A DNA stretch of 64,000 bases from Rhizobium etli CFN 42. Lineage in GTDB: Bacteria; Pseudomonadota; Alphaproteobacteria; Rhizobiales; Rhizobiaceae. Under the pieces are notes generated by a model. That model had not been told where the DNA came from. It saw only the letters and a list, made by a program, of their open reading frames with translations, and did not search any database. Where the stretch lies: contig NC_007763.1 in assembly GCF_000092045.1 (NCBI RefSeq), forward strand, positions 1-64,000, given 5' to 3'. Below, piece after piece: positions 49,397 to 64,000 of the stretch; position 1 is the stretch's first letter; each line of letters opens with the position of its first letter. Position numbers and translations under genes: made by a program.

Positions 49397-50566
49397 CTAG
49401 GGTTTGAGAACGACCTTGATGCATCCGTCCTGCTTGTCGCGGAACGTCTTGTAGAGGGTCGGACCGTCTTCCAGCGTGCCGCGATGGGTGATGACGAAGG
49501 ACGGGTCGATGTCGCCCTTTTCAATACGCTCCATCAAGATCGGCAGATAATGCTGGACCGGCGTCTGCGCCATCTTGAAGGTCAGGCCCCGATTGATTGC
49601 CGAACCCATCGGGATCTTGTCGAGAAAACCGCCATAGACGCCGACGATCGAGACCGTGCCGAAGTTGCGGCAGCATTGGATAGCCTGACGCAGCACATGC
49701 GGGCGGTCCGTTCCCATGAACATGGCGACCTTGATGCGATCGAGGCGTGAATCCCAGCTGGCAGCTGCCTCGGCTTCGGTTCCCACCGCGTCGATGCAGG
49801 CATCCGCACCGCGACCGTCGGTCAATTCCATGATCTGGTCGTAGACGTCCTTGTCCATGAAATCGAGGATGACGGCGCCGGCCGCTTCAGCAAGCGCCAT
49901 TCGCTCGGGCACTGCATCGATGGCGATCACCCGTTCGGCACCGAGCAGGAAGGCCGAGCGTATTGCCATCTGGCCAACCGGGCCGCAGCCCCAGATCGCG
50001 ATCGTATCGCCGGACTGGATGTTGCAGAAATCGGCTGCCATATAACCGGTCGGGAAAATATCGGAAAGGAAGAGCACCTGCTCGTCGGAAAGCCCCGCCG
50101 GCACCTTGATCGGCCCGACATCGGCATAGGGCACGCGCAGATATTCCGCCTGTCCGCCGGCATAGCCGCCGAGCAGATGCGAGTAACCGAACAGGCCCGC
50201 TGGCGAATTGCCCCAGAGTTTCGTAACCTTGGCTCGATCGGGATTGGAGCGCTCGCACCCGGAATAGAAGCCGCGCTTGCAGAAGAAACATTCGCCGCAG
50301 GAAATGGTAAAGGGCACGACGACGCGGTCGCCGACCTTGAGCTTAGTATTGTCCTTGCCGACTTCCACCACTTCGCCCATCGTCTCATGACCCATGACGT
50401 CGCCGCTGCGCATCTCCGGCATGACACCGTCGTAGAGATGCAGATCCGATCCGCAGATCGCGCAGGCCGTGACCTTGATGATGGCATCGCGCCCATCCTG
50501 GATCTGCGGATCGGGGACACTGTCACAGCGGATGTCATGCTTGCCGTGCCATGTCAGAGCTCTCAC
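49397..50566 (-). CDS. Zinc-dependent alcohol dehydrogenase (formaldehyde-dehydrogenase-like MDR)
   Basis: Medium-chain dehydrogenase, 389 aa. Seen: catalytic-zinc Cys in [26 protein letters not shown], structural-zinc cysteines in [16 protein letters not shown], and the dinucleotide motif [11 protein letters not shown]. The insert with [22 protein letters not shown] is typical of the glutathione-independent formaldehyde dehydrogenase-like group. The GTG at 50566 ([13 protein letters not shown]) follows GAGGAGG, so it is chosen over the 50-residue longer frame, which would run through a repeat. The true alcohol or aldehyde substrate is not evident. Confidence 0.88.
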
Positions 50567-50698: not shown

Positions 50699-50723
50699 AA
50701 CCTCAGCTTCGGACAAATGTTCC
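50699..50723 (-). promoter_or_regulatory. EcfG/RpoE2-type promoter
   Basis: Minus-strand GGAAC (50723-50719), 16 nt, GGTT (50702-50699). It lies 133 bp upstream of the zinc alcohol dehydrogenase, with the RIME-like hairpins in between, and divergent from the next site. Confidence 0.7.
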
Positions 50724-53375: not shown

Positions 53376-54401
53376 TCATATGCCGGCGCCATAGATGCCG
53401 TCGATCGCCTCCGCGACCGCAATGAAATTCTCGCACGCGGGATCGTAGCGCTGGCCTCCGGCGAGCTTTTTTGCCCAATCCACGGCAGCCCGTCCGCCCC
53501 AATCGTCGGGGGGGAGGGCGAGAGTTTCGCTCGAAGTGCCGGACATCCTGACGGCCGTAAAATCGTAGAATGAGCCATCGACATTCCTGAAGGAGGCGCC
53601 TCCCTCGGTTCCGAAGAAATCGGCGCCGATCTCGGCGTCACAGCCGGCGTTGAGCCGCCAGGAGCATGTCAGGCGGACGATTTCGCCGCCAGCAAGCGTC
53701 AGCGTCGCGACGGCAAAATCCTCGACCTGATCGTTGTTTTCAAGCCGTTTCCCGCCCGCTTTCAAGGCGCTCGTTACGTTGGTGACGGAGGGAAAATCGA
53801 GGCACCATAAGGCCAGGTCGACGAGATGGACCCCGAGATCGATGACACAGCCGCCGCCGGACTGGTGCTTGTCGTAGAACCAGGGCTTGTCGGGGCCATA
53901 GGCGTTATGAAAGGTCAGATCGGCCGCAAATATCTTTCCAAGAGCGTTCGAACGGATGAGCTGCCGGATCTGCTGCATGCCCTGCGTGTGTCGATAGGAA
54001 AGGTCGACGCCAAGCAGCCTGTCGGCGGTTCTGGAAGCATCGACAACGGCCCTGACCTCGGATGCCGTTCGGCCAAGCGGCTTCTGGCAGAAGACGGCAA
54101 AGCCTGCCCCGAGGGCGCGGATCGACTGTTCGGCATGTGCGGCGCTCGGCGTCGCGATCACGACGCCGTCGAGCTCCTGCTCGAACAACCCGTCCAGATC
54201 GGCGACGATCCTGGCATCCGGGGCGAGCGCCAGGGCCTCTCGTGCCATATTTGTGGAAGGGTCGGCAATGGCGACGGCCTCGGCCACGCCGCTCTCGAGG
54301 ATCGCTTTCATCCGATGCCGGCCGATCCACCCTACGCCGAGAAAGCCCAGCTTCAGTCGTTGTGCGATCGCCGCATTTTCTCCGGACATCGACGGCTTCA
54401 T
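53376..54401 (-). CDS. Gfo/Idh/MocA-family NAD(P)-dependent oxidoreductase
   Basis: A 341 aa oxidoreductase. Seen: N-terminal Rossmann motif LGFLGVGWIGRHRMKAI, GVVIATPSAAHAEQSI, the family Lys in FCQKPLGRTASE, and DLGVHLVDLALWCL with the likely catalytic Asp/His region, then a beta-sheet substrate domain. Members oxidise or reduce sugars, inositols and nucleotide sugars. It overlaps the zinc-type dehydrogenase upstream by 4 bp. The pair diverges from the glycan operon, so a role in making a precursor sugar is likely. Confidence 0.9.
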   Translation of the reverse strand: MKPSMSGENAAIAQRLKLGFLGVGWIGRHRMKAILESGVAEAVAIADPSTNMAREALALAPDARIVADLDGLFEQELDGVVIATPSAAHAEQSIRALGAGFAVFCQKPLGRTASEVRAVVDASRTADRLLGVDLSYRHTQGMQQIRQLIRSNALGKIFAADLTFHNAYGPDKPWFYDKHQSGGGCVIDLGVHLVDLALWCLDFPSVTNVTSALKAGGKRLENNDQVEDFAVATLTLAGGEIVRLTCSWRLNAGCDAEIGADFFGTEGGASFRNVDGSFYDFTAVRMSGTSSETLALPPDDWGGRAAVDWAKKLAGGQRYDPACENFIAVAEAIDGIYGAGI

Positions 54402-55387
54402 GAATATTTCACCAGAGCCTTGAGAAAACCGTCCGGCCGGTCGCGCGTCGTGTTGAGGGCGTCGTCCAGCCTCTCCAGCGGATAGATATGCGTGTAGAGC
54501 GGTTGCGGATCGATCCGGCCCTGGCGCACGGCTTCTATGGCGTCGCGAATGCCTTTGATATAGACGGCCGGTTCGCGCTCATGAGCGTTGATGACGTCGA
54601 GCCCGCGCCAGTTCCAAAGCTGCATGTTGATTTGGCGGGGCCCGTCCTGGTGATAACCGGCGATGATCAGTCGCCCACGTTCCTTGGTAAGCTCGCCCGC
54701 CAGGTCGAGCGGCCATTGTTTGCCGACGGCTTCGATGACGCAATCGCAGAATTTTCCGCCCGTAAGTGTTTTGACGCTCTCGATGATTTGCCAATGATCG
54801 TCCATCGGAATGGTCTCGGCCGCTCCCATCTCTCTCGCCACCCCGAGGGAATAGGGCCGGCGCGAGATGGCGATCACCCTTGCGCCGGCTGCCGCGGCAA
54901 GCCGGGTGAGAAGTGCGCCCAGGAATCCGATGCCGACGATGGCGACGGTCTCGCCGCTTTCGATGTTGCTGCGGCCGAAGATGTTCATGGCGCATCCGAG
55001 CGGTTCGCCCGGAAAGGGCTTGCCATCCAACTCCTTCGGCAGTGATGCGACCATCGAGACATCGGCAATGTCGTGCGTGGCGTAGGCATGGTAGGAAAGC
55101 GCCGCAACCCGCTCTCCCGTCCGAATCCCCGTGACATCGGGGCCAATGGCGTCGACAATACCCCAGCCCTCATGGCCTAACCCACCCGCCTCAGTGGGGA
55201 ACGTCATCCAGTCCGGTCCGGCCCAGGGCGTGAGGTTCGAGGCGCAGACGCCGCATCCTTCCAGTTTCACCCTGACCTGGCCCGGACCGGGTTCCGGCAA
55301 GGGGCAGGTCTCCACCGAAATATGTCCGGGGCCGGTGACGATGGCAGCCCGCATGAGCCCGGCCCTCTGTCTCGCCGCAATGTCCAT
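54398..55387 (-). CDS. Medium-chain (zinc-type) dehydrogenase
   Basis: MDR-superfamily dehydrogenase, 329 aa. Seen: GCGVCASNLTPW (catalytic Cys position), GGLGHEGWGIVDAIG, the nucleotide-binding motif VAIVGIGFLGALLTRLAAAAG, and ISRRPYSLGVAREMGA. The four-Cys structural zinc lobe of classic ADHs is absent, as in some sugar-related MDRs. GGAGG precedes ATG 55387. It forms a two-gene operon with the Gfo/Idh/MocA gene and has an EcfG-type promoter at 55440-55416. The substrate is unknown. Confidence 0.88.
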   Translation of the reverse strand: MDIAARQRAGLMRAAIVTGPGHISVETCPLPEPGPGQVRVKLEGCGVCASNLTPWAGPDWMTFPTEAGGLGHEGWGIVDAIGPDVTGIRTGERVAALSYHAYATHDIADVSMVASLPKELDGKPFPGEPLGCAMNIFGRSNIESGETVAIVGIGFLGALLTRLAAAAGARVIAISRRPYSLGVAREMGAAETIPMDDHWQIIESVKTLTGGKFCDCVIEAVGKQWPLDLAGELTKERGRLIIAGYHQDGPRQINMQLWNWRGLDVINAHEREPAVYIKGIRDAIEAVRQGRIDPQPLYTHIYPLERLDDALNTTRDRPDGFLKALVKYS

Positions 55388-55415
55388 GAGATGTCCTCCA
55401 ATGTGGCACCCCTAG

Positions 55416-55440
55416 AACAACAGGCCTCCCGAAGAGTTCC
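55416..55440 (-). promoter_or_regulatory. EcfG/RpoE2-type promoter (toward the oxidoreductase pair)
   Basis: Minus-strand GGAAC (55440-55436), 16 nt, TGTT (55419-55416), 29 bp upstream of the MDR gene. Confidence 0.75.
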
Positions 55441-55495
55441 AGTAGAGGTCAAAGAAGTCATAGATGATGAAGTCAATAAAGATGTCATTGAAGAA

Positions 55496-55520
55496 GGAAC
55501 TTTTCCATCCGCGTTCGGTT
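55496..55520 (+). promoter_or_regulatory. EcfG/RpoE2-type promoter (toward the glycan operon)
   Basis: GGAAC (55496-55500), 16 nt, GGTT (55517-55520), 47 bp upstream of the first epimerase gene. It is divergent from the site at 55416-55440, so one sigma factor would switch on both arms. Confidence 0.75.
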
Positions 55521-55566
55521 CGGCGCCTATCTCCGAAGCAAATTATTCAACCGGACGGATCTCATA

Positions 55567-56670
55567 ATGACGATTTTGATAACTGGAGGATGCGGCTTCA
55601 TTGGCCGCCACGTTGCTGAAGAACTTCTGAACAATGGCTATCACGTGCGCATTCTCGATGCGCTGATCGATCAGGTGCATGGCGATGCCGAAGTCAGCGT
55701 GCCTCATGGAGCCGAGATCATCCAAGGCGATGTCAGAGACAAGGACGCTGTGCGTGCGGCTCTTGCCGGTGTGAACGGCGTCATTCATCTCGCCGCCGAA
55801 GTCGGCGTCGGACAGTCGATGTATGAAATTGCCCGCTATGTCGGCTGCAACGACCTCGGCACCGCGGTCCTCCTGGAAGCCATGATCGGCCTTCCCGTCA
55901 AGACGATCGTCGTCGCCTCATCGATGAGTGTCTATGGAGAAGGGCTCTATCGGACGGCGGATGGAAAGCGGCTCGGCTATGTCAGGCGGCGCATGCAGCA
56001 TGTCAAGCAGGGCCGGTGGGATCCGCTTGATCAGGATAACCAGCCGCTGACGCCGGTCGCCACCGATGAGGAGAAACCGGTCGATCTTGCGTCCATCTAC
56101 GCTTTGACGAAATACGCGCAGGAGAGGCAGGTTCTTATTTTCGGCGAAGCCTACGGGCTGGATGCCGTCGCGCTGCGTCTCTTCAACGTTTTCGGCGCGG
56201 GCCAGGCGCTTTCCAATCCCTACACCGGCGTGCTCGCCAATTTCGGTTCGCGCCTCGCCAACGGTCAGCCGCCGATGATCTTCGAGGACGGCAAGCAGCG
56301 GCGCGATTTCGTCCATGTCCGCGATGTGGCGACAGCCTTTCGCCTGGCCTTGGAAAAACCCGCAGCCGCCGGTCACGTGATCAACATCGGCAGCGGCCAG
56401 GCCTATTCGATCGCCGATGTCGCGACGCTTCTCGCCGATGCCATGGGCGTGCCCGAGATCGGCCCTGACATCATGAAGAAGGCGCGTTCGGGCGACATCC
56501 GCAATTGCTTTGCCGACATTTCCAAGGCGCGCGAACTGCTCGGCTTCGAACCGAAATATCGTCTCGAAAACGCGCTCGCTCCCTTTGTCGAATGGGTGCG
56601 CCAGAGCGGGGCGGTCGACCGTGGCGCCGAAATGAAGCGGCAACTCGAAGAGCGGGGGCTGGTTTCATGA
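55567..56670 (+). CDS. NAD-dependent epimerase (dTDP-L-rhamnose 4-epimerase-like)
   Basis: Extended SDR, 367 aa. Seen: ILITGGCGFIGRHVAEEL, HLAAEVGVGQSMYEIARYVGCN (a stretch characteristic of the WbiB-type dTDP-rhamnose 4-epimerases), catalytic SSMSVYGEG, YALTKYAQE with YxxxK, RLFNVFGAGQ and RRDFVHVRDVA. It would provide a modified 6-deoxy sugar nucleotide for the glycosyltransferases downstream. It is first in the operon and overlaps the next gene by 4 bp. The exact sugar is an inference from family resemblance. Confidence 0.88.
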   Translation: MTILITGGCGFIGRHVAEELLNNGYHVRILDALIDQVHGDAEVSVPHGAEIIQGDVRDKDAVRAALAGVNGVIHLAAEVGVGQSMYEIARYVGCNDLGTAVLLEAMIGLPVKTIVVASSMSVYGEGLYRTADGKRLGYVRRRMQHVKQGRWDPLDQDNQPLTPVATDEEKPVDLASIYALTKYAQERQVLIFGEAYGLDAVALRLFNVFGAGQALSNPYTGVLANFGSRLANGQPPMIFEDGKQRRDFVHVRDVATAFRLALEKPAAAGHVINIGSGQAYSIADVATLLADAMGVPEIGPDIMKKARSGDIRNCFADISKARELLGFEPKYRLENALAPFVEWVRQSGAVDRGAEMKRQLEERGLVS

Positions 56671-58706
56671 ACAAGGCCGGTGCTCGAGCATCCGATCAGG
56701 AGACGAGGCGGTTCGGTTTTGTCGAATGGTTCCGGCCCGGAGACTATGAGCGGGCTGAGGTCGCGTTGCCGGATATCCTGGAGAGTGGCGCCAGTTATCT
56801 CCGCACACATCTTTCCTGGGCCGAATATCTGGCCCCCGGCGGCCAGCAATGGTTCGATTGGCTGATCCCGCGTATCGGCGGCCAAATCGATCTTCTGCCG
56901 TGCATTCACTACACGCCGCCGTCCCTGTCCCGGACGGGCAGGTCTTCAGGCCCTCCGGTGAATCTCAAATCCTATGCCGACTTCGTCGACCATGTTCTGA
57001 CGCGCTATGGCCGCTATATCAGTCATATCGAGCTCTGGAACGAACCAAACAACCTGCTTGACTGGGATTGGCGCCACGACAGCGACTTTCTGCTTTTCTG
57101 CGAAATGGTCGGAGGCGCCGCCTACTGGGCGAAGCAGAGGGGCTACAAACCTGTACTTGGCGGCCCGTGCCCCTTCGATCCCTATTGGCTCAATCTGATG
57201 GGCACGCGCGGCGTGCTCGGCGTCGTCGACGCCGTCGGCTTCCACGGTTTCCCTGGAACCTGGGATAGCGAGGAGGCAACCTGGGGCGGCTGGGACATGC
57301 ATCTCGGAGAGATGCGTGGGATTATCGATCGTTATAATGCCGATGCCGAAATATGGATCACCGAAACCGGCTACTCCACCTGGCGCAATGACGAGATTGA
57401 ACAGGCGCGGCGCTTCACAAAGGCGCTGAAAGTACCGGCCGATCGCATGTACTGGTATTCATGGCGCGACGTGCCGCCGGATGTTCCGGTTCAGGAAGGC
57501 CTGTGGTTCGATCCGCGGCATTATCATCTGGGCGCTGTCAGCCACGACAATAAACCGAAGCTTCTTGCCCGCCTTCTCACGGAAGGAGGCGTCAAGAGGC
57601 TGGAGGAGGTCGCGGCCCTTGCCGCTCCCAACATCACCTCAGGCGCAGCTCCGATCATCGTCACCGGCGGCAGTGGGTTTGTCGGCTGCAATCTCGCCGA
57701 CCGCCTGCTCAGCGACGGCGAGGACGTCATCATTCTCGACAATCTGGCACGATCGGGAGTCGATCAGAATCTCTCCTGGCTCAAAGAGCGGCATGGCGGG
57801 CGGGTGCATCCGGTCCTCGCCGACGTTCGCGATCTGCTGGGCATCGAAGCAGCCTTCAGAGATGCCAAGGCGGTGTTCCACTACGCTGCGCAAACGGCGG
57901 TGACCACCAGCCTCGTCGACCCGCTGGAGGATTTCGAAACGAACGCGCGCGGCACGCTCAATGTGCTGGAATCGATTCGCAGGGCAGGCAAACGAGCTCC
58001 GATCATCTTCGCCAGCACCAACAAGGTCTACGGCGCTCTCGACGATCTCGGCATGATCGAACTCGATGATCGTTATCTTCCCGAAGACGAGAGCATCAGG
58101 ACGCTGGGGATCGGGGAGGATCGGCCGCTCGATTTCTGTACGCCTTACGGTTGTTCGAAGGGCGTGGCCGATCAGTATATCCTCGACTATGCGAAGTCCT
58201 ACGGCATCCCTGCCGCCGTCCTGCGGATGAGCTGCATTTATGGACCGCGCCAGTTCGGCACCGAGGACCAGGGCTGGGTGGCACATTTCCTGATTCGCGC
58301 GCTCGGCGGGGAACCCATTTCCATCTACGGCGACGGCAAGCAGGTGCGCGATATTCTGCATGTCGATGATGCCGTTGCTGCCTATCGGGTGCTGCTTTCC
58401 AATATCGGGCAGGTCAGCGGCAAAGCATTCAACCTCGGCGGCGGGCCGCGCAACGCCGTCAGCGTGCTCGCGGTGCTGCGCGAGATCGAAGAGCTTGCGG
58501 GCCGTCCAGTCGAAACCAGCTTTGGCCCATGGCGCGCCGGCGATCAGCTCTATTTCGTGGCCGACACGACGAGACTTGAACAGGAAACCGGCTGGCAAGC
58601 CGGAATCGGATGGCGTCATGGTTTGCGGCACCTGGCCGAATGGCTGATCGCCCATCGTTTCGGCGGCCGGCAGATCCGCAGAGAAAAGCGGAAGGCATCG
58701 GCATGA
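56667..58706 (+). CDS. Fusion of a clan GH-A glycosidase-like domain and a CDP-paratose 2-epimerase-like SDR
   Basis: A 679 aa two-domain protein. Residues about 15-310 form a (beta/alpha)8 glycosidase-like barrel with the acid/base Glu in LWNEPNN (E126) and the nucleophile Glu in WITETGYST (E233). There is no signal peptide. Residues about 328-665 are an extended SDR, with IIVTGGSGFVGCNLAD, catalytic STNKVYG, DFCTPYGCSKGVADQYILDY (Y494/K498), YGPRQFGTEDQGW and GDGKQVRDILHVDD. These match CDP-paratose/tyvelose 2-epimerase (RfbE) closely. The fusion suggests a cytoplasmic enzyme that both handles a glycoside and epimerises a nucleotide sugar. ATGA overlaps on both sides. Confidence 0.9.
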   Translation: MNKAGARASDQETRRFGFVEWFRPGDYERAEVALPDILESGASYLRTHLSWAEYLAPGGQQWFDWLIPRIGGQIDLLPCIHYTPPSLSRTGRSSGPPVNLKSYADFVDHVLTRYGRYISHIELWNEPNNLLDWDWRHDSDFLLFCEMVGGAAYWAKQRGYKPVLGGPCPFDPYWLNLMGTRGVLGVVDAVGFHGFPGTWDSEEATWGGWDMHLGEMRGIIDRYNADAEIWITETGYSTWRNDEIEQARRFTKALKVPADRMYWYSWRDVPPDVPVQEGLWFDPRHYHLGAVSHDNKPKLLARLLTEGGVKRLEEVAALAAPNITSGAAPIIVTGGSGFVGCNLADRLLSDGEDVIILDNLARSGVDQNLSWLKERHGGRVHPVLADVRDLLGIEAAFRDAKAVFHYAAQTAVTTSLVDPLEDFETNARGTLNVLESIRRAGKRAPIIFASTNKVYGALDDLGMIELDDRYLPEDESIRTLGIGEDRPLDFCTPYGCSKGVADQYILDYAKSYGIPAAVLRMSCIYGPRQFGTEDQGWVAHFLIRALGGEPISIYGDGKQVRDILHVDDAVAAYRVLLSNIGQVSGKAFNLGGGPRNAVSVLAVLREIEELAGRPVETSFGPWRAGDQLYFVADTTRLEQETGWQAGIGWRHGLRHLAEWLIAHRFGGRQIRREKRKASA

Positions 58707-59815
58707 GCGAACATGAACGATGCAGGGGGCACCGCCGCGTGCTGATGACGGTTGACGCCATCGGCGGCGTCTGGCGCTACGCCATGGACTTGGCCGCAGC
58801 CCTGAAATCGAACAACATCGAGGTTGTCTTTGCGGGGCTGGGTCCTTTCCCGGCAGACGACAAGGTCGCCGAGGCCAGTCGGGTCGGCAAGCTCGTCTGG
58901 CTGGATGCGCCGCTCGACTGGACGGTCGAGAATGAAGAGGCAGTTGCCGAAGTTCCGCGCCTGATTGCGGATCTCGCGCGCCGGGAACAGGCCGATCTTC
59001 TGCATCTCAATCTGCCATCGCAGGCGGCTGGCATGGAAACAAACCTGCCGATTGCGGTGGTTTGCCATTCCTGTGTCGTCACTTGGTTTGCCGCAGTCCG
59101 CGGAAGTCAAGTGCCGCAGGGTTGGCAATGGCAGTACCGGCTGAACCAAGAGGGCTTTGCATGTGCGGACGCGGTGATCGCGCCAAGCCGCAGCCATGCG
59201 AGAGCGATGGAAGCGGCCTATGGAACGATCGGAAATCTTCAGGTCGTTCACAACGCCAGCGCCCTTGAGGCTTCCGACGAGCTCAAGCAGGACTTTGTTC
59301 TTGCTGCCGGGCGCTGGTGGGACGATGGCAAAAACGGCGCGGTGCTGGACAAGGCTGCAGCTATGACGCGATGGACGGTGGCGGCGGCCGGCGCGACCAC
59401 CGGTCCCAATGGCCAGACCACGCGATTTCGCCATGCCGATTACCGCGGCGAGCTTTCGCACGAGCGGATGAGCGCCTTGACGCGGCAGGCGGCCATCGTG
59501 GCCTCGCCGTCCCTCTACGAGCCTTTCGGTCTAGCCGCTCTCGAAGCGGCGCGGACGGGCGCGGCCTTGGTGCTTTCTGATATTCCCACTTATCGCGAGA
59601 TATGGGGCGGAGCCGCTCTTTTTGCCGAGCGGCATCGCTCCGATGCCTTCGCCGATGCCTTCAATACTCTTGCCGACGATCCGCAACTGCGGGCAGCGTT
59701 CGGACGAAAAGCGCGTGCCAGGTCCGCCGGCTTCAGCGTCGAGGCTCAGGCAGAGGCGATGTGCTCGATCTATTCCGGCATGTGCGCCCGCGGTTTTTCA
59801 ACAGCAGCGGAGTGA
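58703..59815 (+). CDS. Glycosyltransferase, GT4-like (GT-B fold)
   Basis: A 370 aa GT-B glycosyltransferase. The N-terminal domain starts VLMTVDAIGGVWRYAMDLAAAL. The C-terminal donor-binding domain has SPSLYEPFGLAALEAARTGAALVLSDIPTYREIW, the EPFG(L)xxLEA motif of retaining GT4 enzymes. There is no membrane segment. It overlaps the fusion gene by 4 bp and precedes three CgeB-like glycosyltransferases, so it adds one of several sugars to the same acceptor. Confidence 0.9.
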   Translation: MSEHERCRGHRRVLMTVDAIGGVWRYAMDLAAALKSNNIEVVFAGLGPFPADDKVAEASRVGKLVWLDAPLDWTVENEEAVAEVPRLIADLARREQADLLHLNLPSQAAGMETNLPIAVVCHSCVVTWFAAVRGSQVPQGWQWQYRLNQEGFACADAVIAPSRSHARAMEAAYGTIGNLQVVHNASALEASDELKQDFVLAAGRWWDDGKNGAVLDKAAAMTRWTVAAAGATTGPNGQTTRFRHADYRGELSHERMSALTRQAAIVASPSLYEPFGLAALEAARTGAALVLSDIPTYREIWGGAALFAERHRSDAFADAFNTLADDPQLRAAFGRKARARSAGFSVEAQAEAMCSIYSGMCARGFSTAAE

Positions 59816-59817
59816 TC

Positions 59818-60948
59818 ATGAAGTTCATTTTCTACACCCATTCATTGGTCTCCGACTGGAATCACGGCAATGCCCATTTTCTTCGCGGCATCATGCGCGA
59901 TCTCCAGCGGCGCGGCCATGAGACGCTGGCGCTGGAGCCGCAGGATGCTTGGAGCCGGGCCAATCTGGTGCGAGACCAGGGGGCGGCTGCGGTCGAGGCA
60001 TTTCACCAAGCCTTTCCGCAGCACCGTTCGCAGATCTACGGCAAGGGATTCGACCACGAAGCAGCGCTTTCCGATGCCGATGTCGTCATCGTTCACGAGT
60101 GGACGGAGCCGCAATTGGTCGAGAGGCTCGGCCGCATCCGGCGCGACGGCGCGGCCTTCACCCTGCTTTTCCACGATACGCACCATCGGGCCGTCTCCGC
60201 CGAAGGCGATATCGCAGGGCTGGCGCTTGACGACTATGATGGTGTGCTGGCCTTCGGGCAGACGCTGCGCGAGCGTTATCTCAGAGCCGGCTGGGGGAAA
60301 TCCGTCTTCATCTGGCACGAGGCGGCGGATGACGCGCTGTTCAGACCGTTGCCGGAGATCGAGAAATGCGGAGACCTCATCTGGATCGGCAACTGGGGCG
60401 ACGACGAACGGTCCGCCGAAATCGGCGAATTTCTGATCCATCCTGCGAGGGATCTGAAGCTCGACGCGGTCGTGCGCGGCGTCCGCTACCCCGACCATGC
60501 GCTGGACGAACTTCGCAAAGTCGGCACCGCCTATGGCGGCTGGATCGCCAATGCCGAGGTTCCCGCGGCCTTCGCCCGCCACAAGGTCACCGTACACATT
60601 CCGCGCCGACCCTATGTCGAACATCTGCCGGGTATTCCGACCATCCGTGTCTTCGAGGCGCTCGCCTGCGGAATACCCCTGATCTCGGCGCCCTGGAAAG
60701 ACGCCGAACATCTCTTCGAATCCGGCAGGGACTACCTTGTCGTCGGTGACGGACAGGAGATGAAGAAAAGCCTGCGCGACGTCCTCTCCGATACCGATCT
60801 GGCTGCGAACCTTGCCGCCGCCGGCCTTGAAACGATCAAGACCCGTCACACCTGCCGCCACCGCGTCGACGAGCTTTTCGCCATTCTGGCGCACTGCGGC
60901 ACGCATAGGGTCACCGCAAACCTGCAATCCAGGGAGGCTGCCGAATGA
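59818..60948 (+). CDS. CgeB-like glycosyltransferase 1
   Basis: A 376 aa GT-B protein of the CgeB / Glyco_trans_1_2 type. It starts MKFIFYTHSLVSDWNHGNAHFLRG. The C-terminal motif is TIRVFEALACGIPLISAPWKDAEHLFESGRDYLVV, in which Glu of FEALA contacts the nucleotide sugar in relatives. CgeB itself acts on Bacillus spore-surface glycans. Only 2 bp separate it from the previous gene and it overlaps the next by 4 bp. Donor and acceptor unknown. Confidence 0.85.
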   Translation: MKFIFYTHSLVSDWNHGNAHFLRGIMRDLQRRGHETLALEPQDAWSRANLVRDQGAAAVEAFHQAFPQHRSQIYGKGFDHEAALSDADVVIVHEWTEPQLVERLGRIRRDGAAFTLLFHDTHHRAVSAEGDIAGLALDDYDGVLAFGQTLRERYLRAGWGKSVFIWHEAADDALFRPLPEIEKCGDLIWIGNWGDDERSAEIGEFLIHPARDLKLDAVVRGVRYPDHALDELRKVGTAYGGWIANAEVPAAFARHKVTVHIPRRPYVEHLPGIPTIRVFEALACGIPLISAPWKDAEHLFESGRDYLVVGDGQEMKKSLRDVLSDTDLAANLAAAGLETIKTRHTCRHRVDELFAILAHCGTHRVTANLQSREAAE

Positions 60949-62033
60949 AGATCGCCTTTTACGGATCAAGTCTCGTCTCCGCCTATTGGAACGGCGCCGC
61001 CACCTATTATCGCGGCCTGCTGCGGGCGCTGGCGGAAAAGGGTTACGATATCACCTTCTATGAGCCGGATGTCTATGACCGACAGAAGAACCGTGACATG
61101 GATCCGCCGGACTGGTGCAGGCTCGTCGTCTACGAAGGGACGATCGACGCCCTCAAGGCCGTCACAAGCGAGGCAGTCGAAGCTGATATCGTCGTTAAGG
61201 CGAGTGGTGTTGGCTTCGAGGACGATCGATTGCTGGAAGAGGTGTTGCGTCATGCACGCCCGCACGCGTTGAAAATCTTCTGGGACGTCGATGCGCCGGC
61301 GACGCTTGCCGAACTCAGGGCCAACCCCGATCATCCGCTACGCCTTGCGCTCGCCCGGCTTGATCTCGTGCTGACCTATGGCGGCGGCGACCCCGTCGTG
61401 AACGCATACCGTTCCGTCGGAGCGGCCGAATGTGTGCCGATCTACAATGCGCTGGACCCGCAAACGCATCATCCGGTGCCGCAGGACTACCGCTTCGCCG
61501 CCGACCTCGGGTTCCTTGGCAATCGCCTGCCGGATCGCGAGGCGAGGGTCGAGCATTTCTTCCTCGAACCGGCGTCGCGTCTGCCAAACCGGACATTCCT
61601 GCTTGGCGGTTCCGGCTGGCAGGACAAGCCGATCCCTTCAAACGTCCGCTATATCGGCCATGTCCCGACGCGCGATCACAACGCTTTCAACGTGACGCCG
61701 ATGACGGTCCTCAACATATCGCGCGCCAGTATGGCGGAGAATGGTTTTTCCCCTGCGACGCGGGTCTTCGAGGCGGCCGGCGCCGGGGCTTGCCTCATTA
61801 CCGACTACTGGGAGGGCATCGATGTCTTTCTGAAGTCCGGCGAGGAGGTCCTGGTCGCGCGCGACGGACAGGACGTGGCTGCCTTGCTCAGCGGCTTATC
61901 CCACCAATCCGCCCGGGAAATTGGAGAAAGGGCGCGCCGGCGCGTTCTGGCCGAACACACCTATGTCAATCGCGCCGAAACTGCAGACGAGATTTTTCGC
62001 GCCCGTCTTGGCGCGCGGGAGGCCGCCGAATGA
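60945..62033 (+). CDS. CgeB-like glycosyltransferase 2
   Basis: A 362 aa paralogue of its neighbours. It starts MKIAFYGSSLVSAYWNGAATYYRGLLRALAEKG and has FWDVDAPATLAELRA mid-protein. The C-terminal motif is ATRVFEAAGAGACLITDYWEGIDVFLKSGEEVLV. The same GT-B, Glyco_trans_1_2 architecture is present. ATGA overlaps on both sides show strict coupling. Differences in the middle suggest that the three paralogues add different sugars or use different acceptors. Confidence 0.85.
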   Translation: MKIAFYGSSLVSAYWNGAATYYRGLLRALAEKGYDITFYEPDVYDRQKNRDMDPPDWCRLVVYEGTIDALKAVTSEAVEADIVVKASGVGFEDDRLLEEVLRHARPHALKIFWDVDAPATLAELRANPDHPLRLALARLDLVLTYGGGDPVVNAYRSVGAAECVPIYNALDPQTHHPVPQDYRFAADLGFLGNRLPDREARVEHFFLEPASRLPNRTFLLGGSGWQDKPIPSNVRYIGHVPTRDHNAFNVTPMTVLNISRASMAENGFSPATRVFEAAGAGACLITDYWEGIDVFLKSGEEVLVARDGQDVAALLSGLSHQSAREIGERARRRVLAEHTYVNRAETADEIFRARLGAREAAE

Positions 62034-63130
62034 CGAGATCGCTCGATATCGTCTTCCTCGGGCTCTCCCTTTCCTCTTCTTGGGGGAACGGTCACGCCAC
62101 GACCTATCGCGCCCTGATCAAGGGTCTTCGGCAGGACGGCCATCGGGTCCTGTTCGTGGAGCGGGACGTGCCGTGGTATGCCAGCCACCGGGATCTCCCT
62201 TCGCCTGACTTCTGCGAGCTCGCCTATTATTCCGATATCGGCGCAATGCTCGAGCGTCACGGCGAAAGGCTCGACAAGGCCGATGCCGTCATCGTCGGAT
62301 CCTATGTTCCCGATGGTGTGCCGCTCATCGACGGGCTCGGGGCGCTGGGGCTGAAACGTCTCTGCTTCTATGACATTGACACGCCGGTCACCCTCGCCAA
62401 GCTCGATCGCGGTGATGAGGAATATCTGGCGCTGCGGCAGGTTCCCTTGTTTGACACTTATTTCTCCTTCTCCGGAGGAAGGGTGTTGACGCGGCTCGAA
62501 CAGAGATATGGCGCGCGCAGAGCCGTCGCGCTCTATTGTTCGGTCGACGAGGGGCGTTATGCCAATACCGGCGAGCCCACTTGCTGGGATCTCGGCTATC
62601 TCGGAACTTATAGCCATGACCGGCAGCCGACACTGGAGCGCCTTCTGCTGGAGTCGGCGCGCCGCCTGCCCTCGATGCGCTTCGTTGTCGCCGGGCCGCA
62701 ATATCCAGCCGAGATTGAATGGCCGGCCAACGTCGAGCGCATCGAGCATCTGCCGCCTGCCGATCACGCAAGCTTTTACAGCCGGCAGCGGTTCACGCTG
62801 AACGTGACCCGCAGCGATATGATTGCCGCCGGCTGGTCTCCCAGCGTGCGGCTGTTCGAGGCTGCCGCCTGCGGGGCGCCTATCATCAGCGACTTCTGGC
62901 AGGGTCTCGATGAACTGCTGCCGGACCGTAACGCTTTGTTCATTGTGCGCACGCCGGAGGATGTCGTGGCGCTGCTGACGGAGCTTCCCGACAGCGACCG
63001 TCTGGCCGCCGCCGCAGCAGCGAGAAAGCTGGTGATGAGCAGTCATACCGGTGTCGCTCGTGCCGGCGAGCTCGCCCGGTCTCTTTCGAATCTGTCCGCT
63101 AATCCAGCTTTTGACCGTATCTCAGCGTGA
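62030..63130 (+). CDS. CgeB-like glycosyltransferase 3
   Basis: A 366 aa third paralogue. It starts MTRSLDIVFLGLSLSSSWGNGHATTYRAL, with CFYDIDTPVTLAKLDRGDEEYL mid-protein (parallel to FWDVDAPATLAEL in paralogue 2) and the C-terminal SVRLFEAAACGAPIISDFWQGLDELL. No signal peptide. The ATG at 62030 overlaps the previous stop; the longer open frame upstream is a shadow. It is followed after 12 bp by the decarboxylase-like SDR. Confidence 0.85.
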   Translation: MTRSLDIVFLGLSLSSSWGNGHATTYRALIKGLRQDGHRVLFVERDVPWYASHRDLPSPDFCELAYYSDIGAMLERHGERLDKADAVIVGSYVPDGVPLIDGLGALGLKRLCFYDIDTPVTLAKLDRGDEEYLALRQVPLFDTYFSFSGGRVLTRLEQRYGARRAVALYCSVDEGRYANTGEPTCWDLGYLGTYSHDRQPTLERLLLESARRLPSMRFVVAGPQYPAEIEWPANVERIEHLPPADHASFYSRQRFTLNVTRSDMIAAGWSPSVRLFEAAACGAPIISDFWQGLDELLPDRNALFIVRTPEDVVALLTELPDSDRLAAAAAARKLVMSSHTGVARAGELARSLSNLSANPAFDRISA

Positions 63131-63142
63131 AGGAGAGTATCG

Positions 63143-64000
63143 ATGCTTCAAGCCAATCGTCGCGGAAAAAGCAAGACTGTTCTGGTGGCAGGGGGCGCCG
63201 GCTTCGTCGGCTCGCATCTCTGCGATGCTCTGCTCGGCCGTGGCGACACCGTCATTTGCGTCGACAGCTACATTACCGGCTCGCGAGACAATGTCAGGCC
63301 GTTGATGAACCATCCGGGCTTCCGGCTCATCGAACAGGATATCTGCAAATTCATTGAAATCGGCGAACCGCTCGACCAGATCTATAATCTGGCCTGCGCC
63401 GCGTCCCCGCCGCAATACCAGGCGGATCCCGTTCACACGATGATGACGTGCGTTGCCGGTACGGGTAATCTGCTGGCGCTTGCCGAGCGGCACCGGGCCG
63501 CCTTCCTCCAGGCCTCGACGAGCGAAGTCTATGGCGATCCCGCTGAGCATCCGCAGAAAGAGGACTATCGCGGTAATGTCAGCTGCACAGGACCGCGTGC
63601 TTGTTATGACGAGGGAAAGCGCGCCGCGGAAGCTCTTTGCTTCGACATGCTGCGTGCCGGCCGCGTCGACGTGCGGGTCGCCCGCATCTTCAACACCTAT
63701 GGGCCGCGAATGCAGGCAAATGACGGCCGGATCGTCTCCAACCTGGTCGTGCAGGCCCTCTCGGGGAAACCGCTCACCATCTACGGAAGCGGCATGCAGA
63801 CCCGGTCCTTCTGCTACGTCAGCGATCTTGTCGGCGGCCTTATGGCGCTGATGGATGTGCGGCCGAACCCTGGTGTTCCCGTCAACCTCGGCAATCCGGG
63901 GGAATTCACCATCAACGAGCTCGCGCAGATGATCCGTTCGATGGTGCCGGTGCGAACGGCTGTTGCCTACAGACCTTTGCCGAAGGATGATCCTCAACGC
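63143..64000 (+). CDS. UDP-glucuronate decarboxylase-like SDR (3' end beyond window)
   Basis: The first 286 residues of an extended SDR, still open at the window end. Seen: TVLVAGGAGFVGSHLCDALLG, IYNLACAASPPQYQADPVHT, QASTSEVYGDPAEHPQ, CYDEGKRAAEALCFDM with YxxxK, RIFNTYGPRMQANDGRIVSN and YGSGMQTRSFCYVSDLV. These match UDP-glucuronic acid decarboxylase (UXS), which makes UDP-xylose, very closely. AAGGAGAG lies before the ATG. It would supply a pentose donor for the glycosyltransferases just upstream. Confidence 0.87.
   Translation, partial: MLQANRRGKSKTVLVAGGAGFVGSHLCDALLGRGDTVICVDSYITGSRDNVRPLMNHPGFRLIEQDICKFIEIGEPLDQIYNLACAASPPQYQADPVHTMMTCVAGTGNLLALAERHRAAFLQASTSEVYGDPAEHPQKEDYRGNVSCTGPRACYDEGKRAAEALCFDMLRAGRVDVRVARIFNTYGPRMQANDGRIVSNLVVQALSGKPLTIYGSGMQTRSFCYVSDLVGGLMALMDVRPNPGVPVNLGNPGEFTINELAQMIRSMVPVRTAVAYRPLPKDDPQR

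Follow-up and report, generated by a model that had tools for sequence, protein, structure and literature searches.

The window analysed here, i.e., the whole stretch of 64,000 nucleotides at positions 1 to 64,000 of contig NC_007763.1 of Rhizobium etli CFN 42, ends in a cluster of genes for building a glycan, which is unusual both in its gene set and in its control. There are two divergent arms. One strand carries two oxidoreductase genes: a zinc-binding dehydrogenase (ADH) and an oxidoreductase of the Gfo/Idh/MocA family (IDH). The other strand carries an operon for an epimerase-type short-chain dehydrogenase/reductase (SDR1), a fusion of a glycosidase domain with a second SDR, a GT4 glycosyltransferase, three CgeB-like glycosyltransferases and a UDP-glucuronate decarboxylase (UXS). 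An earlier note on this DNA, made from the sequence alone, had described two oxidoreductases facing a seven-gene overlapping operon, and Pfam and NCBIfam scans, together with the starts of the open reading frames (ORFs), found all nine genes to be present. After refinement of the starts, there are ATGA overlaps at four operon junctions (56667, 58703, 60945 and 62030). When the sequence was extended past 64 kb, the operon gained an eighth and last gene, for a methyltransferase of the family TIGR04290 (MT), and no export genes were seen among the ORFs read in the 18 kb beyond the window. These ten genes, given in Table 1, are referred to as the cassette.

Table 1. Genes and promoter motifs of the cassette (positions in the window; those past its end are on contig C4)
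Feature	Position	Strand	Basis
IDH, Gfo/Idh/MocA family oxidoreductase	53376..54401	-	Pfam PF01408/PF22725; KP and DxGVHxxD motifs
ADH, zinc-binding dehydrogenase	54398..55354	-	Pfam PF08240/PF00107; ORF opens at 55387, probable start 55354
EcfG-type motif, ADH/IDH arm	55416..55440	-	GGAAC-N16-TGTT, 86 nt upstream of ADH start
EcfG-type motif, operon arm	55496..55520	+	GGAAC-N16-GGTT, 71 nt upstream of SDR1
SDR1, extended SDR, sugar-nucleotide epimerase type	55567..56670	+	PF01370; closest solved relatives are mixed epimerases
Fusion, N-terminal clan GH-A-like glycosidase domain (about residues 1-310) and C-terminal 2-epimerase-like SDR	56667..58706	+	
GT4 glycosyltransferase	58703..59815	+	PF13439/PF00534
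CgeB-like glycosyltransferase 1 (CgeB1)	59818..60948	+	PF13524, 123.4 bits
CgeB-like glycosyltransferase 2 (CgeB2)	60945..62033	+	PF13524, 129 bits
CgeB-like glycosyltransferase 3 (CgeB3)	62030..63130	+	PF13524, 114.8 bits
UXS, UDP-glucuronate decarboxylase (UDP-xylose synthase)	63143..64000 in the window, ends C4:64189	+	
MT, TIGR04290 methyltransferase, operon gene 8 (last)	C4:64210-64944, outside the window	+	379.7 bits, cut-off 300

The enzymes can be assigned with differing precision. UXS is nearest to the structures of human UXS1 (354.9 bits, with the next other family at 127.6) and has the YxxxK motif as YDEGK; its predicted product, UDP-xylose, has strong support by homology. In the fusion, the SDR half most resembles CDP-tyvelose 2-epimerase (274.7 and 256.8 bits; next 137.2), from which it differs in being fused to a glycosidase half. 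For SDR1, which the earlier note had called 4-epimerase-like, the epimerase type stands, whereas a 4-epimerase is a best guess only, as the best NCBIfam match, GalE, is under its cut-off (156.6 versus 262.3 bits). ADH and IDH both stay below the NCBIfam equivalog cut-offs; among solved structures, IDH is most similar to DgpA-type glycoside dehydrogenases, and inositol dehydrogenases rank lower. The matches of GT4 to solved relatives are restricted to residues 244-366, i.e., to the donor half, and inferring the acceptor from GT4 was rejected on this ground.

Species genomes were searched with a profile of the fusion protein and the best 80 of 134 loci were examined, a choice by which the fused form is over-represented. 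According to their record titles, these loci are mostly from Rhizobiales and Rhodobacterales, and the bacteria that carry the cassette include many from soil, plants and water. In the comparison of synteny that the earlier note had proposed, the order of the ten genes was near-fixed: GT4 and CgeB1 are present in all 80 loci, CgeB2 and CgeB3 in 79 each, ADH in 78, UXS in 76, IDH in 75 and MT (at a threshold of >100 bits) in 66, with contig ends accounting for some of the absences. ADH and/or IDH are displaced or reversed near the operon in about eight loci (L058, L059, L066, L068, L069, L074, L080 and L084). The divergent arrangement described in the earlier note was found, although the two arms, being conserved together in homologous loci, appear to be one pathway. 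In a sample of the whole class, an orthologue of CgeB2 was present in just 13 of 340 alphaproteobacterial genomes, so the cassette is patchy. Sinorhizobium meliloti 1021 has a copy on pSymB at 244-248 kb, and a plasmid of a gammaproteobacterium, Xanthomonas sacchari R1, has a fused-form cassette with ADH and IDH inside a single operon-like run. Two further genes are found beside the cassette: a DUF1003 gene in 25 of the 80 loci (family checked on one), and a gene of the UDP-glucose/GDP-mannose dehydrogenase family, which adjoins the cassette in 12 loci, heads the ADH arm in seven, and fits a supply of UDP-glucuronate for UXS.

The gap between the arms holds one EcfG-type promoter for each arm, reading from 55496 and from 55440, as the earlier note had stated. 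Such a pair inside one window proves little, because the looser pattern GGAAC-N18-TT arises 15 times on the two strands of the 64-kb window. In the 80 loci, a scan for GGAAC-N16/17-[CGT]GTT covered the 300 bases upstream of every cassette gene. The motif was found before SDR1 in 70 of 80 loci and before ADH in 47 of 78, the latter a lower bound because a dehydrogenase gene heads the ADH arm in seven loci. Before the remaining genes it was found in 0/75 (IDH), 2/80 (fusion), 1/80 (GT4), 0/80 (CgeB1), 0/79 (CgeB2), 0/79 (CgeB3), 2/76 (UXS) and 0/66 (MT) cases, and before other ORFs (at least 150 amino acids) of the same loci in 34 of 528. Upstream of SDR1, 65 of the 75 motif hits fall 55-100 bases from the start, and 30 of 37 genus-level labels, taken from record titles, have at least one SDR1 motif; a stricter motif ending in CGTT was found before SDR1 in only 6 of 80 loci and before ADH in 9 of 78. 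The 80 loci are related, so that these counts are not independent, but relatedness does not explain the contrast between genes within the same loci, and the enrichment across the 80 loci is far above chance. Thus, control of the cassette by the EcfG/RpoE2 stress response, as predicted from conserved promoters, is well supported, in line with the earlier note's proposal of stress induction. That the ten genes form one pathway with stress promoters is also well supported. Beside the cassette, the window has additional EcfG-like motifs at 50723 (-), 52647 (-) and 52710 (+), two of which sit shortly before ORFs on the minus strand that end at 49397 and 51788; these neighbouring genes may share the EcfG regulon.

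In other lineages, a B12-binding radical-SAM protein of the family TIGR04295 (705.5 and 684.1 bits; cut-off 400) lies before GT4 in the same core operon, without ADH and IDH. A set of 26 genomes comprised all those with TIGR04290 over its cut-off (16) or with CgeB2 in the class sample (10 more). TIGR04295 is present in 19 of these genomes and the cassette ADH in the other seven; none has both and none has neither. TIGR04295 was found in none of 51 further genomes (50 from the 80 loci, including L061, which is without ADH near its cassette, and the R. etli genome again), for which its detection in the 26-genome set is the positive control. The simplest reading of this mutual exclusion is that the ADH/IDH pair and TIGR04295 do the same job. 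A quick tree (LG+G4) was built from five concatenated core proteins, with 50 rows, of which 36 have ADH and 14 the B12 enzyme. On it, the trait switches at least six times, four of these being forced by well-supported branches, a count that transfer of whole cassettes could affect. The trait is also clustered, as only 0 and 1 of 500 shuffles gave a count as low as that of the tree.

ADH and IDH are both NAD(P) oxidoreductases and hardly ever occur one without the other, which suggests oxidation followed by re-reduction, i.e., epimerisation of one ring carbon. The other common reaction of B12 radical-SAM enzymes is methylation, which is disfavoured as the shared reaction because dehydrogenases could not take it over. 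This can be compared with the situation in aminoglycoside pathways, where BtrN (a radical-SAM enzyme) and NeoA (a zinc-dependent ADH) are unrelated enzymes that perform the same cyclitol step in different organisms. The likeness lies in the exchange of a radical-SAM enzyme for a zinc-dependent ADH; in the cassette, by contrast, the radical-SAM protein has a B12-binding domain and its counterpart is a pair, ADH plus IDH.

The glycosidase half of the fusion has clan GH-A-like motifs, WNEPN and TETG, whose glutamates are invariant in 16 aligned sequences, and both catalytic motifs are present in 85 of 86 fused proteins. At gathering score no Pfam family matches this half, and membership of GH39 found little backing: one of 11 members gave a match, at E 0.05 only, and the domain in the window gave none. 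The glycosidase also occurs as a free protein (L010:149-1123, L130:3494-4456 and 14 further loci). In all 16 collected free glycosidases, WNEPN adjoins the probable N-terminus (typically MIEAAMIWNEPNNK); the strict second motif is present in 15 and a looser pattern in 16. The opening segment of the fused domain is matched at the C-terminal end of the free glycosidases (profile E 1.1e-17 to 3.7e-14), and their N-terminal part matches the remainder (E 2.4e-34 to 5e-28). Since each half is present once and the total lengths agree, the alignments indicate that the free glycosidase is a circular permutation of the fused domain. Residues 3-184 of the S. meliloti free glycosidase match residues 132-319 of PslG weakly (E 0.047), as expected of a permuted barrel, and a match to a GH39 beta-xylosidase is also weak (E 0.11); compared with these two enzymes, the cassette adds the fusion and the permuted free form.

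The two forms of the glycosidase differ in their company. A gene for myo-inositol-phosphate synthase (MIPS) lies in the same or an adjoining stretch in 16 of 16 collected free-glycosidase loci, versus 0 of 87 fused cassettes. In S. meliloti pSymB, Roseomonas, Azospirillum and several further genomes, the cassette is combined with MIPS, with a phosphatase of the histidine family and with the free glycosidase; UXS and the 2-epimerase were not found in the Azospirillum cassette stretch. In two loci (L123 and L128), the cassette and the MIPS module are all in one divergent operon pair, with ADH, IDH, MIPS, the free glycosidase and the methyltransferase on one arm. Among the 340 alphaproteobacterial genomes, 13 have the cassette, 20 have MIPS and six have both, compared with 0.8 expected (Fisher p 2.5e-5). 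MIPS is thus present in 6 of 13 cassette genomes and in 14 of 327 others (p 2.0e-4 when the R. etli genome is omitted). In four of the five other genomes of co-occurrence, 6.7-8.1 kb separate the start of the cassette from that of MIPS; the fifth shows no linkage.

The R. etli chromosome has a MIPS module of its own (C2, about 2849.75-2857.58 kb; L009:15752-20000 and L010:1-3575). It includes a second TIGR04290 gene, MIPS, the phosphatase and a free glycosidase, together with a gene whose product has no match in Pfam and two that correspond to S. meliloti neighbours, and it resembles part of the pSymB locus. EcfG motifs lie 66 nt before its MIPS gene and 58 nt before a pyruvyl-transferase-like gene; in S. 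meliloti, they precede MIPS, SDR1 and the pyruvyl-transferase gene. There is no second full copy of the cassette in the R. etli genome: only the methyltransferase (71% identical) and a distant glycosidase recur, both inside this chromosomal module. A protein of 582 amino acids (L009:16525-18273, L130:6379-8127), with no match in Pfam or NCBIfam, adjoins MIPS in several lineages.

The earlier note had seen no Wzx/Wzy, export ABC transporter or initiating transferase, and the same was found beyond the window. From the end of the window to C4:82000 (18 kb), no priming transferase, flippase/polymerase or export ABC transporter was seen by ORF reading, with eight ORFs scanned against NCBIfam and one against Pfam; among the recurrent neighbours of the 80 loci, whose families were read by eye, there was no exporter, polymerase or priming transferase. 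A crude hydropathy scan gave no convincing membrane segment in the cassette proteins. A classical exopolysaccharide locus was rejected because export, polymerase and priming genes are absent from these surroundings; the closed gene set and the hydropathy scan likewise favour the earlier note's view that the product is something other than a classical exopolysaccharide. Downstream of MT, a c-type cytochrome gene follows after 33 bases on the same strand, and oxidase genes are then found on the opposite strand; between C4 64978 and 73710 (L004:2978-11710), there are genes for a c-type cytochrome, a CtaG-like protein and cytochrome c oxidase subunit I, and an ORF of the molybdopterin oxidoreductase family.

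From the gene set, its conservation, its promoters and the patterns of replacement and linkage, a pathway can be proposed whose chemistry, beyond the level of enzyme families, and whose role are conditional. UXS would supply UDP-xylose, as homology strongly suggests, while SDR1 and the 2-epimerase-like SDR would remodel further nucleotide sugars. GT4 probably starts a chain on a small acceptor, which the three CgeB-like glycosyltransferases would lengthen. ADH and IDH, or elsewhere the one B12 radical-SAM enzyme that replaces them, would epimerise one ring carbon, the TIGR04290 enzyme would O-methylate the product, and the clan GH-A-like domain may trim, edit or transglycosylate it. Where MIPS is present, the acceptor is probably inositol or an inositol phosphate, which in R. 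etli could be supplied by the chromosomal MIPS module; in most fused-form genomes, which are without MIPS, it may be imported inositol or something else. Inositol is thus a fair candidate where MIPS is present, neither proven nor universal, and for R. etli itself it is possible, if on balance doubtful. Because there is no exporter and the control is by EcfG, accumulation inside the cell is most likely, and the product may act as a compatible solute or protect the cell from drying and starvation. That the cassette makes a small cytosolic, O-methylated, xylose-containing oligosaccharide, built on inositol in some lineages and acting as a stress solute, is regarded as having about an even chance of being correct.

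Several observations weigh against this reading. IDH does not point to inositol, because DgpA-type relatives outrank the inositol dehydrogenases, and where GT4 matches inositol-phosphate glycosyltransferases, it does so in its donor half alone. Of 50 fused-form genomes, seven have MIPS and 43 do not, for which reason a universal inositol acceptor was dropped; in the class sample, MIPS is likewise missing from 7 of the 13 genomes that have the cassette. The hydropathy scan put some windows of ADH, IDH, SDR1 and GT4 above its mark of 1.6, although these are read as buried core segments. Finally, the exact EcfG motif is absent at the tested starts in Azospirillum (L133), Roseomonas (L132) and the X. 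sacchari R1 plasmid (L134), and also in L121, L123, L124 and L128; versions with one mismatch are present in L121, L123 and L128.

Cytosolic glycosyltransferases often build lipid-linked glycans, and the product could instead be a surface, lipid-linked or protein-linked glycan (e.g., a decoration of lipopolysaccharide or glycolipid), finished and exported by genes elsewhere, by which the envelope is remodelled under stress. In keeping with this, a gene of the polysaccharide-pyruvyl-transferase family with an EcfG motif lies nearby in S. meliloti and in the R. etli chromosomal module, and envelope-related genes are among the EcfG targets in Sphingomonas melonis Fr1 (PMC6599016). Such a glycan is nevertheless somewhat unlikely: neither the recurrent neighbours of the 80 loci nor the ORFs read in the 18 kb downstream showed an initiating transferase, flippase, polymerase or ABC exporter, and none of the 80 cassette stretches contains the pyruvyl-transferase gene.

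Aminoglycoside-type pathways commonly use tailoring enzymes of the B12 radical-SAM and Gfo/Idh/MocA kinds, and the solved relatives of IDH include enzymes that presumably belong to such pathways. With its glycosyltransferases, methylation and radical-SAM or dehydrogenase tailoring, the cassette resembles a natural-product pathway, the product of which might be a secreted small glycoside (a signal or specialised metabolite) rather than a solute. This is quite improbable, as no transporter or resistance gene is recurrent near the 80 loci and as conservation this wide, together with stress promoters, would not be expected of a strain-specific metabolite. Even more remote is a separate polyol- or inositol-catabolic unit in the ADH/IDH arm, merely sharing the stress regulon, as might be supposed from the scores of both enzymes under every NCBIfam equivalog cut-off and from the other place or orientation of ADH and/or IDH in the eight loci named above. 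Set against this are the presence of ADH in 78 and of IDH in 75 of the 80 loci, the strict exclusion with TIGR04295, which is itself inside the operon, and the arm that both enzymes share with MIPS, the free glycosidase and the methyltransferase in L123 and L128.

In comparison with known systems, a stress solute of the kind proposed recalls pinitol and ciceritol: plant methyl-inositol solutes and their galactosides. The likeness is by gene types only, i.e., the combination, in a stress pathway, of an inositol synthase and a methyltransferase with oxidoreductases that epimerise and with glycosyltransferases. Tentatively, and with less confidence than for inositol as the acceptor in R. etli, the cassette and the MIPS module might together make a bacterial stress solute of a class not described before, an O-methylated, stereo-inverted inositol or other cyclitol bearing a xylose-containing oligosaccharide. 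This would be a bacterial counterpart of pinitol and ciceritol, controlled by the general stress response, with the B12 radical-SAM epimerase and ADH/IDH interchangeable and a cytosolic glycosidase in normal and circularly permuted forms. There is also some resemblance to the first steps of mycothiol synthesis (inositol-phosphate synthase, MshA and a phosphatase), as MIPS is near mycothiol INO1 and has a GT4 and a phosphatase alongside. The S. meliloti MIPS, however, scores 555.6 bits, below the TIGR03450 cut-off of 638, the window GT4 scores 48.2 bits, far below the cut-off for MshA (TIGR03449, 462.5), and the cassette adds three more glycosyltransferases, UXS, epimerases and a methyltransferase; the INO1 and MshA scores thus do not support a mycothiol-type pathway.

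The earlier note knew of no described system with this gene set. No description of the cassette was found by a full-text search of the main texts of largely open-access papers, and supplementary regulon tables may already list the genes as stress-dependent; neither TIGR04290 nor TIGR04295 is named in the papers of that search, and the cassette is not mentioned in the parts of PMC3892343, PMC8877191, PMC12542648 and PMC3616915 that were covered. The part of PMC6599016 covered lists glycosyltransferases and a zinc-dependent ADH among EcfG-dependent genes of S. melonis Fr1, and no match of these to the cassette could be made. Two proteins found inside cassettes do already have NCBI families, TIGR04290 (meth_Rta_06860) and TIGR04295 (B12_rSAM_oligo), both hypothetical equivalogs without assigned function, so that the statement of the earlier note needs qualifying to this extent. 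These are families of single proteins, which do not provide the gene set, the stress promoters, the pattern of exclusion or the link to MIPS.

The repeated exchange between ADH/IDH and the B12 radical-SAM enzyme predicts a reaction for TIGR04295, and a glycosidase barrel with its normal order in the fusion and a permuted order in the free protein would, if true, be an unusual case of protein evolution. The conserved EcfG motifs and the near-fixed gene order suggest that the general stress response of Alphaproteobacteria has in this cassette a metabolic output that had not been assigned to it. Model strains, among them S. meliloti 1021, carry the cassette, which bears on the question of which metabolites, beyond trehalose, this response uses for protection.

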